64,000 nucleotides of DNA. It comes from Halobacteriales archaeon QH_7_65_31 (GTDB lineage Archaea > Halobacteriota > Halobacteria > Halobacteriales > Haloarculaceae). The stretch is from the NCBI GenBank assembly GCA_003021785.1, contig PXQU01000016.1, positions 460,407 through 524,406 of the forward strand. Direction: 5' to 3'. Shown piece by piece: positions 29,909 through 38,295 of the stretch. The notes below the pieces were generated by a model. It saw nothing but the letters and a program-made list of their open reading frames with translations, was not told the DNA's origin and did not search any database. Within the stretch, counting starts at the first letter, position 1. Every line of letters begins with the position of its first letter. Made by a program: the position numbers and the translations under genes.

Positions 29909-30745
29909 ATGAGACGCGTCCCGTTCGGTATCCGTCGGCTCGACACCACCATCGGTGGCGGTGCGCCGGGCGGTAGTCTGGTGTTGCTCTCCGGGGAGGC
30001 CGGGGCCGGCGCACGGGAGTTCATGTACACCGCGGCGATGATGAACGCGCTTCAGGCGACCGACGAGGAGCTGTTCGATCTCTACTACGGTGACCTGCCC
30101 GACGGGACCGAGCCGGTTCCGAACGTGCACTACGTCTCCTTCACCGCCGAGAAGCCGCGGCTCCGCCGCGAGATGGACTTCGTCCTCGACGAGGAGATCA
30201 CCGAGACGGCGATCGAGAACGTCACCTTTCACGATCTCTCGGGCGAGTACTTCCGGGTCTCGCCGATCCCCCGCGACTGGTACGCCGACCGAACCGGGAG
30301 CATCACGAGTCTTGGCGACGAGGGGGAGCGTTCGACCGTTCCCGAGGCGCTCGGTGACGTGTTATCGGACCACGCCACGGAGAGTCTGGTCATCATCGAC
30401 TCGTTGACCGATCTCATCAGCGCGACCGGGGAGGACATGACGTGGACGGACATCCCGAAGCTCGTGAAGGGGATCACCAGAGCGACCTACGAGTGGGGCG
30501 GGCTGGTGCTCGTACTCCTCAACCACGAGACGCTGTCGGGTGAGCGCCACGGCCAGCTGATCGACGCCGCGGACGGCTCGTTCATGTTCGAGTGGGAGTC
30601 GGGCGGCTCCACCCGCGCACGGACGCTCGTCGTCCGGCAGTTCCGCGGTGTCCTCTCGGCGATCGAGGACGAGGATATCGTCCAGTTCGAGACGGAGATC
30701 GGCGATGCCGGCTTCGATATCAGCGACGTGCGGAAGATCCGATGA
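29909..30745 (+). CDS. HTR-like RecA/KaiC-fold ATPase homologue with degenerate Walker A
   Basis: 278 residues of the RecA/KaiC fold: MRRVPFGIRRLDTTIGGGAPGG opens it, and Walker B is SLVIIDSLTDL. The Walker A region reads GEAGAGAREF, where the Lys-Thr pair is replaced by Ala-Arg, so nucleotide hydrolysis may be lost. Such HTR-like proteins are common in haloarchaea with no assigned role. It begins 33 nt after the tnpB stop, so its promoter lies next to or within the element. Confidence 0.75.
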   Translation: MRRVPFGIRRLDTTIGGGAPGGSLVLLSGEAGAGAREFMYTAAMMNALQATDEELFDLYYGDLPDGTEPVPNVHYVSFTAEKPRLRREMDFVLDEEITETAIENVTFHDLSGEYFRVSPIPRDWYADRTGSITSLGDEGERSTVPEALGDVLSDHATESLVIIDSLTDLISATGEDMTWTDIPKLVKGITRATYEWGGLVLVLLNHETLSGERHGQLIDAADGSFMFEWESGGSTRARTLVVRQFRGVLSAIEDEDIVQFETEIGDAGFDISDVRKIR

Positions 30746-33844: not shown

Positions 33845-35182
33845 CTACTCGACGTAGCGGTACTTCCGTTCGCCCATCCGGCCCCAGCCGTCGAAGACGA
33901 ACTCCGCGTCCGGGGCGGTGAACTCCTCGGAGTCGCGGTCCTTCGAGTGGTCGTGTGCATCGTGGACGGTCTCGTACTCGGCGAAGTCCAGATCGTACCG
34001 CGCTTCGGTCTGTTCGTCGATGTTGAGTGCCGAGATCTCGTCCTTCCACCCCGGCTGGACGGTCTCGTGGTGGACCTCCGCCTGCGCGCCGGAGCCGTAG
34101 GAGGCGAGGAACAGCCGCTCGTCGGTCATCTCACGCCCCGCCTCGTGAGCGCGCTTGAGCGCGGCCAGCCGCGCGACGTGGACCGAGCCGGTGTACCAGT
34201 TGCCGACGTGGCGCGCGATATCGAGCGTCGGGTCGATCGTCGCCTCGTACCACTCCTGATACCGAGTCGTCTCTTTCAGCTCGTCTGTGTAGTCGGAGAC
34301 GGCATCGAGGAACGCGTCTTCGCCGTCGAACTCGGACTCGCGCGGCTGCATCCCAATCTCCTCGGCCAGCGTCTCCTCGATCTCCGTGTCGCGGGTGATA
34401 TGCCGGTACGCGAGTAGTGCGGCCTTCCGGACCATCCCCGGGAACGGGGTGTGGAACGGCGCGTAGATGAAATCGTCCGGATGGACCTTTCCGGCGACGG
34501 ACTCGTAATCCTCGACGGCCTCGCGCATCCGCGCGAGATACACCTGCACCGACCGTTTGCCATCGACGCTCGGGAACTGCTGGTTCGGCTTCAGGAAGTC
34601 CGTCTCGTCGGCACTCCCGTACCCCTGCTCGTCCGACAGCGCCACCAGCGACGGGTCCTCCGTGACCAGCATCGCGACCGCGCCGGCCCCCTGTGTCGCC
34701 TCCCCCGGGTCGCCGCGCGCGTACAGCGCCGTGTCCGTCGCGACGACGATGGCCGCCCGTCCGCGATTCCGCCCGGCGCGAATCCAGTTGTACGCGTCGT
34801 CGACGGCCTGCGTGCCGGCGACGCAGGCGAACTTCCGCTCGCCCTTGTTGGCGTGGTGGAAGTCGCCGTCGAACGTCTGTTCGAGACAGCCGGCGATGTA
34901 CGTCGAGATCGGCTTCGAGTTGTCGAACGACGACTCCGTCGCCACGTCGATCCGTCCGATGTCGTCGGGACGGAGATCGTTGCGCTCCATCAGCCGCTTG
35001 CAGGCGTTCGCCCCCATCGTCACGATGTCCTCGTACGTGTCCGGGAACGAGGACTCGTACAGCCCGAGTCCCTTCGTGTACTTCCCGGGGTCGTCGCCCT
35101 TCTCCGGCGCGAACGTCTCCGCTAAATCGAGTTTCAGTTTTCCGGTCCAGATCTCCGCCGCGTCGATCCCTACCTGAGTCAT
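33845..35182 (-). CDS. Hydroxymethylglutaryl-CoA synthase
   Basis: 445 residues; condenses acetyl-CoA with acetoacetyl-CoA in the mevalonate route to archaeal isoprenoid lipids. Family features: MTQVGIDAAEIWTGKLKLD, the catalytic Cys in RKFACVAGTQA, and FHTPFPGMVRKAA with the catalytic His. A leaderless start is predicted at ATG 35182. Confidence 0.95.
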   Translation of the reverse strand: MTQVGIDAAEIWTGKLKLDLAETFAPEKGDDPGKYTKGLGLYESSFPDTYEDIVTMGANACKRLMERNDLRPDDIGRIDVATESSFDNSKPISTYIAGCLEQTFDGDFHHANKGERKFACVAGTQAVDDAYNWIRAGRNRGRAAIVVATDTALYARGDPGEATQGAGAVAMLVTEDPSLVALSDEQGYGSADETDFLKPNQQFPSVDGKRSVQVYLARMREAVEDYESVAGKVHPDDFIYAPFHTPFPGMVRKAALLAYRHITRDTEIEETLAEEIGMQPRESEFDGEDAFLDAVSDYTDELKETTRYQEWYEATIDPTLDIARHVGNWYTGSVHVARLAALKRAHEAGREMTDERLFLASYGSGAQAEVHHETVQPGWKDEISALNIDEQTEARYDLDFAEYETVHDAHDHSKDRDSEEFTAPDAEFVFDGWGRMGERKYRYVE

Positions 35183-35248: not shown

Positions 35249-35908
35249 TTAATCATCGTCATCCGGATCGTCTGAATCATCCGCATCGTCAGCGTCATCA
35301 TCGTCGTCGTCATCATCATCATCGTCCGCATCGTCTGCATCCTCTGGATCGTCCGCATCGTCTGCATCCTCTGGATCGTCCGCATCGTCTGGATCATCCG
35401 TGTCTTCTTGCCCGTGGTTATGATCTGTGGCTGTAGGCGTATCTGTTCCACCCGGAACGTACTGCTCTGGCGTTTGAGTCTGCACGATCTCCTCGATCGT
35501 GGAGACAGACGCGACCACGTCACCGTTGTCAGTAACGAGCTGAACCGAAATCCCCGACTGTGGCTCACTGCCAGAGAATTCAGGCCTGCTGTCGAGATCA
35601 TCGCTCCATACGTCGCCAGCATCGAATGACCCGTCTGCCTCTGTGAGTCCTGCCTGAGTGAAGTTGATGGACTTCGTGCCGCCGGACTCGATCAGCAGAT
35701 GGAGCCGGTCGGTTGCAACGCTATCGCCACCCATGTGGGTAAGCGTGAGTTCGCCGTCCTCGATCTCGGCGTTAAGATTCGCTTCAAGCCCCGTACTCTG
35801 GTCGGCGACACTCGTAACGACCGCGCCACCCGCGACGACACCAACGGTAACGAACACTCCGATGAGGAGGATCGGACCGAGGACGGATGACTGTGCGCGG
35901 TCGTTCAT
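35249..35908 (-). CDS. Type IV pilin-like protein with Asp-rich tail
   Basis: 219 residues. The N-terminus MNDRAQSSVLGPILLIGVFVTVGVVAGGAVV is the archaeal pilin/archaellin-type class III signal and hydrophobic helix; residues beyond it form a beta-rich domain. The last 60 residues are almost only Asp, Glu, Ala, Pro, coded by 27-nt tandem repeats and CAT/GAT runs. Its ATG overlaps the stop of the 569-residue gene upstream. Confidence 0.8.
   Translation of the reverse strand: MNDRAQSSVLGPILLIGVFVTVGVVAGGAVVTSVADQSTGLEANLNAEIEDGELTLTHMGGDSVATDRLHLLIESGGTKSINFTQAGLTEADGSFDAGDVWSDDLDSRPEFSGSEPQSGISVQLVTDNGDVVASVSTIEEIVQTQTPEQYVPGGTDTPTATDHNHGQEDTDDPDDADDPEDADDADDPEDADDADDDDDDDDDDDADDADDSDDPDDDD
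35321..35392. repeat. 27-nt perfect tandem repeat (about 2.7 copies)
   Basis: The unit starting at 35321 is repeated exactly at 35348 and partly at 35375. It encodes the repeated acidic peptide DPEDADDAD. The region is flanked on the left by irregular CAT/GTC runs. Slippage here would change tail length. Confidence 0.85.
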
Positions 35909-37614
35909 TCTTTTGCTACCTGTTCCGTCCGATCGAGGGTTACTGTAATCTCTTCTCTGTACCGATTGCCGTCAGACATGAATTCGATAACCAGAGTCAC
36001 CTCTTTATTTTTCAAGTCAACGGGTGCTCCACTCGAATCCTGAAATTCGTTCAGCTTGAGAACGATACGACTGCCAGCATCGATACCTCCTTTCTGGTCG
36101 AATTCGGTAACTTGACCAATATCAACAGAACTCTGTACAATCTTTCCGTTCTGATTGCTGCTCTCAAAGTACGCAACGATCCCGTAGTTATTGTCCTTGT
36201 TCTCTGCATACTCAGAGGCGTCCAACTGACTCGCAGAGCTTGAGCTGACCCTTGTCTCCAGCGAAACGATCTTATCAACGGCTGTATCGGTCTGAGTATT
36301 TCTTATGCCAATTTTTGCTGCTGCGTACTCGCCATCGTAGCTATTATGTACTTCAATGTCAACGGCAGTCGGTTCCTTATCTCCACTATCAGCTTCAAGA
36401 ATGGTATTGACAGATCCACTCCTTGGGTTGAGCTCTCGTGAGAGCGTTACTGTGTCACCGTCTTCATTCGTTCCGGTGACGGTGATGATATAATTCCCAT
36501 TTTGATAATTGCCACTGCTCGGCTGAATCTCGAGATCCGATCTGGTGAATGTCGTTTGACCGCTGAGGTCACCAGAGGTGAATGTCCCGGCGTTCCCACT
36601 TCCGTCGGTCGGCTGGACGGTGATTTCTACATTATCCAGTCCGCTATTGTCCGTAACCTCCACTTCTTGGATAGTAACTTTGCCTTTGCCCGTGTTACCG
36701 GTGTCAATATTAAACGTTGGAATGCTGAGTCCAGAGCGCCCACCTTCATCGCCGTTATCGCCTCCACTGCTCGGGATCGGTGCGATAGCGGAGAGATTGC
36801 TCGGCGGAGCCGTATCTATTCCGACTTCTGTACAGGCGACGTTGTACTCACCGGCGAGGTCGATAGTAACCTCATTACCCGAAACTGAGAGGTTGTTCAC
36901 GCCGGTTGTGTTCTCAATATCGGTGACTGAATCGTAACCCAACGCCTCGGCCCACGTTGACGCCTTCGCACTCGTCGGAAGCGCAACCTCGGGGTCGGTA
37001 ATGGATTCCGTGTCACTCGTCCCGCTGTAAAGATCAAGTGAAACCGCCTCCGTGCCCGACTGTCGGGTCTCACCGAACAGTGCGACAAGATTTACCGTCC
37101 CTCCCGGTCCGTCGTCCTCACCGAACAGCAGTCGGGCACGTGTCTGAACACGCTCGGTCCCGTCGTCGAACTCGCTGAAAACGAACGTGTTCTCGTACTT
37201 CGTCGTGGGTGCATTGTTGTAGTAGCTGTAGCTGGGCGTGTAGCTCGCACGAACCGTCTTGTCAGGTCCAGGGCACACGTCTCCGTCACTGTTGGTTACC
37301 GTAATATCGCCACGGTCGGTCGTCGCAAATCGACCGCTCGCCGCTGGTGCGTTCAGCGCGAAGATCCGAGCCGGAAAATCCTGACCCAGCTGAATCGAGG
37401 TAGCCCCGTTCTGCCCGGCGTTGGCTGCTCGAACAATGGCATTGCGCGTATCTACAATATCCTGTTGCACCTCCCGGCTGTGGTCGAACTCGACCTCCTG
37501 ATTCTGCTGGGGGACGACGACGGCCTGATAGGAACTGAAGCCGATAACCGCGAACGCGAGCAGGATGATGACGCCGACCTGCACCGACTGGCCGCGCGTA
37601 TCACCCCGGAACAT
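35905..37614 (-). CDS. Large pilin-like or surface-exposed protein
   Basis: 569 residues with an N-terminal transmembrane segment (RGQSVQVGVIILLAFAVIGFSSYQAVVV) typical of archaeal pseudopilin-like proteins, then a long beta-rich extracellular region with many Thr, Asn and Ser and little charge bias. The gene is markedly AT-richer than its neighbours (for example 35940-36960), suggesting transfer or distinct selection. Translationally coupled to the pilin gene. Confidence 0.75.
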   Translation of the reverse strand: MFRGDTRGQSVQVGVIILLAFAVIGFSSYQAVVVPQQNQEVEFDHSREVQQDIVDTRNAIVRAANAGQNGATSIQLGQDFPARIFALNAPAASGRFATTDRGDITVTNSDGDVCPGPDKTVRASYTPSYSYYNNAPTTKYENTFVFSEFDDGTERVQTRARLLFGEDDGPGGTVNLVALFGETRQSGTEAVSLDLYSGTSDTESITDPEVALPTSAKASTWAEALGYDSVTDIENTTGVNNLSVSGNEVTIDLAGEYNVACTEVGIDTAPPSNLSAIAPIPSSGGDNGDEGGRSGLSIPTFNIDTGNTGKGKVTIQEVEVTDNSGLDNVEITVQPTDGSGNAGTFTSGDLSGQTTFTRSDLEIQPSSGNYQNGNYIITVTGTNEDGDTVTLSRELNPRSGSVNTILEADSGDKEPTAVDIEVHNSYDGEYAAAKIGIRNTQTDTAVDKIVSLETRVSSSSASQLDASEYAENKDNNYGIVAYFESSNQNGKIVQSSVDIGQVTEFDQKGGIDAGSRIVLKLNEFQDSSGAPVDLKNKEVTLVIEFMSDGNRYREEITVTLDRTEQVAKE

Positions 37615-37689: not shown

Positions 37690-38295
37690 TCAGCTCTCCT
37701 CGACGAGTTCGGGGTCCGAGAGCGCGTCCTGTAGCGAGTCGAGTCCGTTCACCCACTCCGCGACGTAGCCGTATTCGAGGTCGGCGGCGATACCGCTCAC
37801 GTCCGTCTCCGTGCCGTCGACGACGAGCGTCCCGGCCTGCGCACAGTAGTTGAACGCGGTGTCGAACTCCTCGTCGCCCTCGGCATCGACGGCCGCTTGG
37901 ATGTTGGCCGCGACGGTCCCCTCCTCGGGTGCGCCGTTGACGACGAACGCCTCGGCGGAGGCGGCGACGCAGTGGAGTGCCATCTGGACGGAGTCGACGA
38001 GCATCGCCTTGTCCTCGTCTTCGATGCGCACGTCGTCGAGCACGACCGCGGCGAACGACTCCAGCTCGTCGAGGGCCTCGTCCTCACCGAGCAGACTGTC
38101 CCGATAGGCGGTGATGATCTTCGCGACGGCGATCGCAGCGTCGTCCTGTAGATTCAACAGCAGGCGGGCGGAGTCCTCGTTTTCGGGGTCGATCTCCTCG
38201 TCTTCGAGTCGGCTGAGCCAGTTGTTCCAGCGCTCCTCGCTGTAGAACTCCTCTGGCAGCTCTCTCTCGCCCTCGCCGCTCTCGTCAGTGCTCAT
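37690..38295 (-). CDS. DUF2150 family protein
   Basis: 201 residues. Acidic N-terminus, then EEFYSEERWNNWLSRLEDEEIDPENEDSARLLLNLQDDAAIAVAKII, recognisable as the haloarchaeal DUF2150 family. Mostly helical and probably soluble. TATAAG at 38321-38326 supports ATG 38295 as the start. No function known. Confidence 0.82.
   Translation of the reverse strand: MSTDESGEGERELPEEFYSEERWNNWLSRLEDEEIDPENEDSARLLLNLQDDAAIAVAKIITAYRDSLLGEDEALDELESFAAVVLDDVRIEDEDKAMLVDSVQMALHCVAASAEAFVVNGAPEEGTVAANIQAAVDAEGDEEFDTAFNYCAQAGTLVVDGTETDVSGIAADLEYGYVAEWVNGLDSLQDALSDPELVEES

Follow-up and report, generated by a model that had tools for sequence, protein, structure and literature searches.

A conserved haloarchaeal chromosomal slot encodes a candidate modular pilin whose C-terminal half changes between close relatives

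We analyzed a 64,000-nucleotide (nt) stretch of DNA from Halobacteriales archaeon QH_7_65_31 (contig PXQU01000016.1, positions 460,407 to 524,406; hereafter "the window"), focusing on two minus-strand genes that overlap in an ATGA stop/start at 35905-35908. The upstream gene (35905-37614) encodes a protein of 569 amino acids, and the downstream gene (35249-35908) encodes a pilin of 219 amino acids. An original prediction made from this DNA alone had located the pair and its overlap correctly, and had considered it an accessory surface structure under rapid change, perhaps horizontally acquired. On the basis of sequence comparisons and a structure model, we propose with moderate confidence that the 569-amino-acid protein is a modular type IV pilin that presents a replaceable binding module at its C terminus, with the Pilin_N protein as an optional partner. 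The gene occupies a conserved chromosomal slot and its product carries a pilin-type signal motif ahead of a long modeled helix. Its C-terminal part changes abruptly between close relatives, is replaced outright in some pairs, and includes modules that are shared with other proteins.

The typical order of genes at the slot is DUF2150, a gene of the 569-amino-acid type, an optional pilin gene, and HMG-CoA synthase. In the window, both markers are likewise on the minus strand and were assigned by Pfam and synteny, with DUF2150 upstream at 37690-38295 (start chosen at 38295; the longest open reading frame extends to 38508) and HMG-CoA synthase downstream at 33845-35182. Relatives of the 569-amino-acid protein are present in 47 of the 59 genomes searched (counting its own); among near-complete genomes, 37 of 41 have one. 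Among 80 named loci, some of whose stretches end at a contig border, DUF2150 is found in 69 and HMG-CoA synthase in 69, with both in 62 and neither in 4. The gene sits at the same position in most of the haloarchaeal loci read, and the term "accessory" is not supported. Halosegnis rubeus, a congener of the window, has the same gene pair in the same slot, and the slot gene is also carried by Halobacterium salinarum (L118) and three Haloferax species (L160, L174, and L175). Two of the four near-complete genomes without the gene have an empty slot, with DUF2150 and HMG-CoA synthase matches fewer than 200 nt apart (L205 and L207); for the other two, DUF2150 was not found within the 1.5 kb examined. 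Counts of slots given below derive from 90 loci, drawn from 129 open reading frames of relatives by requiring the presence of HMG-CoA synthase and a length of at least 350 amino acids, and keeping one locus per distinct HMG-CoA synthase; 89 of these loci yielded a slot. Our literature searches returned no description recognized as this locus, and no papers on DUF2150 or on HVO_2418, a tag that may belong to a Haloferax volcanii member. The word hydroxymethylglutaryl is absent from the main text of Makarova 2016 (PMC4858521) as far as that text was available, and the family may stand under an arCOG in its supplementary tables.

Some loci have additional arrangements. Two family members stand in tandem within one slot in L110 (5995-10764), L126, L131, L148, and L161, and members also occur on plasmid-labelled contigs (L163 and L182), of which L182 also has DUF2150 and HMG-CoA synthase. 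In Haloferax sulfurifontis (L175, 5995-8664), a slot gene of 565 amino acids is followed by a separate reading frame that looks like PKD. Its counterpart in L160 is a single gene of 891 amino acids, and the L175 gene may be split.

The N-terminal ~275 residues of the protein (36790-37614) can be aligned across the whole family. An R-G/A motif before a hydrophobic stretch is the cleavage rule of class III (PibD-type) signals, and 112 of 115 unique family N-termini conform to this pattern. Pattern matching also finds the motif in both proteins of the window. Cleavage of the 569-amino-acid protein is predicted at RG/QSVQ (the slash marks the cleavage site), which would remove the leader MFRGDTRG (codons 1-8, 37591-37614) just before the hydrophobic helix, and the corresponding site in the pilin is RA/QSSVLG. 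In the AlphaFold2 model, the N-domain consists of a 60-residue helix (residues 7-66) and a beta-rich domain, with a predicted local distance difference test score of 92.5 and a predicted template modeling (TM) score of 0.86. An N-terminal helix of 60 residues is typical of pilins.

Of 196 genomes of the phylum, 113 contain the N-domain by profile search, including the genome of the window and genomes outside the order, in reading frames of up to 2049 amino acids; the weakest of these matches are limited to the first ~60 residues and could be general pilin signals. In the window's own genome, which also has a Peptidase_A24 gene, a second copy of the N-domain lies directly after genes that match T2SSE/PilB3_N (PilB) and T2SSF (PilC). 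Another genome of the genus (G003) contains two such PilB-PilC-paralog sets in tandem (L202, 5271-16185). Thus, the copies adjacent to PilB and PilC link the N-domain indirectly to type IV pilus assembly.

The C-terminal half of the window protein is modeled as two immunoglobulin-like (Ig-like) domains of non-pilin type, the first comprising residues 296-399 (36418-36729, modeled with lower confidence) and the second residues 415-563 (35926-36372). The best single-domain VIA row for domain 1 is GbpA at Z 7.9, which is within the range of unrelated beta sandwiches. For domain 2, the highest Z value is 8.9, with TRAPPII and GGA-ear domains, and the adhesins Als3, Als9, and ACE give 6.7-7.7. The 569-amino-acid protein matches nothing in Pfam or NCBIfam, and DUF7289 (PF23960) in particular gives no match at E ≤ 0.01. 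Among 67 family members, domains counted at E ≤ 0.01 (some of them under curated cut-offs) are Big_1 (40), DUF7289 (11, best 2.4e-09), PKD_4 (10), Invasin_D3 (7), MG4 (5), and FG-GAP_3 (4), with single matches to PA14, GLEYA, CARDB, and the haemagglutinin repeat Fil_haemagg_2. Judging from these matches, the recognizable domains are mainly of adhesin or Ig types.

Close relatives differ far more in this half than in the DNA on either side. For 68 pairs whose HMG-CoA synthases are at least 90% identical, mean DNA coverage is 0.83 over the first 600 nt of the slot gene, 0.34 over the C-terminal part, and 0.78 over the downstream 1.2 kb, where non-collinear matches are included. These pairs share genomes and so are not independent, with L143 alone present in six. 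Alignment is lost over the C-terminal part in 46 of the 68. Fourteen of those 46 pairs also fail to align at nt 200 and were excluded from the list of breaks. In the other 32, the start of the gene aligns and the alignment ends at nt 478-1234 (at nt 850-1100 for 20 of them); in 28 of these pairs it then resumes, covering at least half of the following 1.2 kb. For example, the genes of Haloarcula argentinensis and Haloarcula japonica (L142/L143) align as far as nt 1025 and then once more starting at nt 2032, immediately past the stop codon, with C-terminal protein parts that are still 45% identical over 283 amino acids. The C-terminal part also changes abruptly in L125/L130, in L100/L181, and in L134/L146, where no match remains at all. 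Flanks in these swap cases align at about 77-94%. The earlier suggestion of surface proteins under rapid change is supported for the pair, which consists of a pilin and a larger protein that also has the motif of a class III signal.

Three genomes of Halosegnis, the genus of the window, illustrate outright replacement. The N-terminal part of the slot protein in the window is 75.5% and 76.8% identical to those of H. rubeus (L083/L103) and of L084 (genome G004), respectively. The C-terminal part is 63% identical between the window and H. rubeus, and is undetectable between the window and L084. At the DNA level, L084 and L103 align at 93% up to nt 887, there is no C-terminal match, and alignment resumes only at the pilin gene. 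The unrelated module of L084 begins right after a poly-Gly stretch and is separated from the pilin gene by AT-rich non-coding DNA. This module matches slot proteins from Halobaculum gomorrense (L154; 46% over 141 amino acids, with N-domains 34% identical), from a Halobacteriales metagenome-assembled genome (L173; 44% over 169 amino acids, N-domains 31% identical), and from L123 (28%), as well as free-standing secreted repeat proteins in other genomes (L185-L189, three of which matched in a second search too). Next to L186 are reading frames that look, by eye, like a SipW-type peptidase and like a TasA-type protein. The C-terminal part of the window protein is found in three of 195 genomes, all of the same genus and its own among them. 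As a control, the PilB-PilC-linked paralog in the same three genomes retains its C-terminal part at 73% over 146 amino acids in both comparisons. Thus, the change in these three genomes concerns the slot gene specifically.

The pool of C-terminal parts across the family was clustered for the 78 of 90 loci that have at least 80 amino acids beyond residue 380. A pool of countless unrelated modules can be rejected, as single linkage yields nine clusters, the largest with 63 members; at 70% coverage there are 14 clusters, the largest with 54. The pool is thus a mosaic of shared domain types, and between close relatives the C-terminal part is usually a divergent mosaic and sometimes wholly unrelated.

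These findings suggest how the protein might work. A PibD-type peptidase probably processes it, after which the N-terminal helix and first domain would either anchor it in the membrane or polymerize into a type IV pilus. The large beta-rich C-terminal module would then be displayed outside the cell as the binding part, serving adhesion or recognition. This module would evolve by diverging strongly and by being exchanged for modules from different lineages and from surface proteins of other kinds, presumably through recombination, with the anchoring half and the two flanking genes remaining in place. The Pilin_N protein, probably co-translated with the larger protein, would be an optional partner subunit.

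Several results weigh against this interpretation. The N-domain of the window protein falls short of the Pilin_N (PF07790) cut-off (E 0.15, 13.4 bits), and its model has no matches at E ≤ 0.001 in Foldseek searches of PDB and BFVD. No solved pilin matches it well, with pilin-type VIA rows reaching Z 3.0-3.9. Rows for the N-domain at Z 2.0-4.5 include reovirus sigma1, the pseudopilin EpsH, and the pilin FimA, and are too weak to use. A search of PDB by sequence likewise gives no convincing solved match (best E 0.11), and the nine Foldseek matches of the full-length model at E ≤ 0.001 all have low TM-scores. The slot itself has no PilB or PilC alongside. A Pilin_N partner is present in only 22 of 89 slots, where all 22 match Pilin_N at E ≤ 0.01, and fewer than 250 nt follow the slot gene in 52 of 89.

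The replacement of modules is also open to a more gradual reading. Among 96 pairs with N-domains at least 60% identical, a C-terminal match is absent in 5, covers less than half in 38, and covers at least half in 53, such that the C-terminal parts of 91 pairs still share detectable homology. In those pairs, fast divergence is indistinguishable from replacement by a distant allele, and our confidence in the modular pilin is held at a moderate level because of them. Many breaks sit at one conserved motif inside Big_1 or the first Ig-type domain, and part of them may mark fading similarity rather than a point of recombination. A preference of breaks for linkers was considered and rejected, as the fraction of linker-type residues is 0.617 compared with 0.595 (n = 32); the Halosegnis break, which lies at a Gly-rich stretch, is unlike this overall lack of enrichment. 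The large single-linkage cluster, with 63 of 78 C-terminal parts, points the same way. Finally, similarity among C-terminal parts still reflects vertical descent weakly (Mantel rho 0.156, 0 of 300 permutations), compared with a rho of 0.318 (0 of 300) between the identities of the N-domain and of HMG-CoA synthase. Change in the C-terminal part is thus frequent, yet it partly follows descent and is not a free-for-all.

The lack of assembly genes in the slot raises the possibility that the protein has a pilin-type signal and never enters a pilus, acting instead as a signal-anchored surface stalk whose C-terminal module is a membrane-held adhesin or glycan-binding head. The proteins reach 1402 amino acids, which is bulky for the body of a filament, and 67 of 89 slots have no Pilin_N partner. 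Nonetheless, relatives of the same N-domain stand directly after PilB and PilC, the 60-residue N-terminal helix is of the kind usually seen in pilins, and the remaining 22 slots do have a Pilin_N partner, which for 12 of the 19 measured lies between -4 and +36 nt. We regard such a stalk as a less likely alternative to the modular pilin.

A modular pilin would have precedent in bacteria, whose modular pilins present modules at pilus tips (PMC8179133, in the part available). As described there, Streptococcus sanguinis PilB and similar proteins combine a class III signal and a pilin-type N-terminal part with an extra C-terminal module, which binds ligands in the PilB type, in many architectures. 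The archaeal N-domain described here differs in falling below the Pfam pilin families and in having no clear solved match, and its gene occupies a fixed slot with a C-terminal module that differs between close relatives. The main text of PMC8179133, to the extent available, does not contain the word archaea. Haloarchaeal Pilin_N pilins (PF07790) are another point of comparison; the 219-amino-acid protein is one of them, whereas the 569-amino-acid protein is below the cut-off.

The manner of change recalls VARTIG of Thermococcales, which is described in the accessible portion of PMC8416519 as a large Ig-domain protein with a conserved N-terminal part and a hypervariable C-terminal part that changes in place and is common to several species. 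The haloarchaeal C-terminal region is likewise hypervariable, changes in place, and is shared between species, with outright replacement in a minority of pairs. The haloarchaeal protein differs in its pilin-type signal, in C-terminal modules that are not only Ig, and in a slot between housekeeping genes, and the likeness is one of mode of change. The VARTIG authors reported no counterpart outside Thermococcales, at least in that portion, where one of their searches required an Ig protein of at least 1000 amino acids with another Ig gene nearby (PMC8416519). Only 6 of 86 proteins in the present family attain that size. UpsA of Sulfolobales provides an archaeal precedent for a pilin whose variable region determines partner specificity, although its variable stretch is short (15 residues exchanged) and no module is grafted onto it (PMC7064770, in the part available). 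By analogy, then, the architecture resembles that of a modular pilin and the mode of evolution resembles that of VARTIG.

These likenesses also suggest a conflict or self-recognition function of the VARTIG or polymorphic-toxin type, in which the C-terminal variant would tell kin from non-kin or deliver an effector. The constant N-terminal part, fast C-terminal part, change in place, and occasional tandem copies fit the pattern described for VARTIG (PMC8416519, in part), and UpsA pilins set species-specific aggregation in Sulfolobales (PMC7064770, in part). No toxin family is present among the 24 Pfam families in 67 members, in which many modules, including that of the window, lack a Pfam match, and the short distance after the gene in 52 of 89 slots leaves little room for an immunity gene. 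We consider this function rather unlikely. The same analogy allows a broader and still speculative proposal, to which we assign a low but not negligible probability: the slot might encode an order-wide haloarchaeal recognition system, whose head, carried on a pilus, would be exchanged in the manner of alleles and recognize kin, mates, or surfaces. Such a system could be the haloarchaeal counterpart of VARTIG on a pilin anchor. If so, the VARTIG-like mode of change would extend beyond Thermococcales, and archaea would offer a clear case of modular pilins.

Haloarchaea mate across species and form biofilms. The slot protein is a candidate determinant of their choice of partners and surfaces, and the combination of a constant anchor with a changeable outer module in a conserved slot makes this role testable.

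Change confined to the outer part of a protein with a constant anchor might also reflect escape from viruses that attach to it or use it as a receptor; the use of archaeal filaments by viruses is reportedly the subject of a review. We find this improbable, since no virus is linked to the protein here and specialization of an adhesin fits the same pattern.

The base composition of the two genes bears on their origin. Among 62 genes of at least 120 amino acids called in the window with our own simple caller, some of which are surely false, the mean G+C content at third codon positions (GC3) is 0.826 (standard deviation 0.075). The gene for the 569-amino-acid protein, predicted to be AT-richer than its surroundings, indeed has the lowest GC3 of all (0.584; overall GC 0.533), and the pilin gene has the third lowest (0.595; GC 0.574). 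Codon use is unusual as well, with adaptation to the window of 0.43 and 0.47, respectively, compared with a mean of 0.68. The deviation is graded within the larger gene, where GC3 falls stepwise from 0.83 (residues 1-30) through 0.69 and 0.64 to 0.50 and 0.49 (residues 286-569, with the value of 0.49 for residues 421-569). By comparison, GC3 is 0.84 in the PilB-PilC-linked paralog. Among relatives, mean GC3 is 0.887 in flanking genes, 0.819 in the N-terminal part, and 0.743 in the C-terminal part, and GC is lower than in the flanks for the C-terminal part in 67 of 80 rows and for the N-terminal part in 56 of 80 (the table has 86 rows, 6 without a value, and some loci contribute two). AT-richness is therefore a family trait, most marked in the C-terminal part, rather than a sign of recent arrival of the pair. 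Horizontal acquisition of the pair, in favor of which both genes are low in GC and poorly adapted in codon use, is thus very improbable given the same slot across the order, the gradation of GC within the gene, and the correlation of N-domain with HMG-CoA synthase identity. "Acquired" may nevertheless be true of the C-terminal modules, because an unrelated module has replaced this half in one congener.

The smaller protein of the pair matches Pilin_N (PF07790) at 8.6e-06, with 27.0 bits against a cut-off of 25.2. H. rubeus has the same pair, and across the family the second gene is optional, with 22 partners counted. These partners were picked beforehand by their pilin-type signal; the count comprises 21 pattern matches, less L140 and L165 (removed by eye), plus L098, L128, and L159, and it omits L085, whose candidate is encoded on the opposite strand. 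The 89 slots do not include loci that lack HMG-CoA synthase in the stretch, among them L094 and L102, where a pilin follows the gene. Six of the 19 measured partners lie more than 60 nt from the slot gene, among them that of L110, measured from the first of its two tandem copies, and the L103 pilin overlaps the slot gene only when counted from its first in-frame start. In L101, a pilin-like gene of 138 amino acids lies upstream of the slot gene, after DUF2150, and not downstream.

The pilin of the window ends in an acidic tail (residues 166-219, 72% Asp+Glu; 35252-35413). Tandem Repeats Finder reports a repeat of period 27 with 2.8 copies and 97% matches at 35321-35395, which consists of two exact copies and a partial third with one mismatch, within a longer acidic stretch of period 9; a string count in another phase gives just one full 27-nt unit. 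The predicted Asp-rich repeat therefore exists, with "perfect" being slightly too strong a term. Related pilins differ in unit and in length, the latter as had been anticipated. The L083 pilin has a Glu tail encoded by 4.8 copies of the 9-nt unit GGAAGAAGA, the L084 pilin has an Asp tail after an extra domain, encoded by 8.3 copies of the 9-nt unit CGATGACGA, and the pilin of L090, also of this genus, has a Thr-Pro-rich stretch and no acidic tail. Sequences from the three genomes compared fit repeat-driven change, and the tail might be a polyanion generated by repeats, with slippage causing its unit and length to drift. Because only three Halosegnis pilins among 22 aligned partners end in an acidic run, with units and lengths all different, the repeat tail accounts for only a small share of the story of this locus.

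Elsewhere in the window, a gene for a KaiC-like ATPase (PF06745, barely above the cut-off) is located at 29909-30745 and is followed by a coiled-coil-like gene and then an acidic gene.

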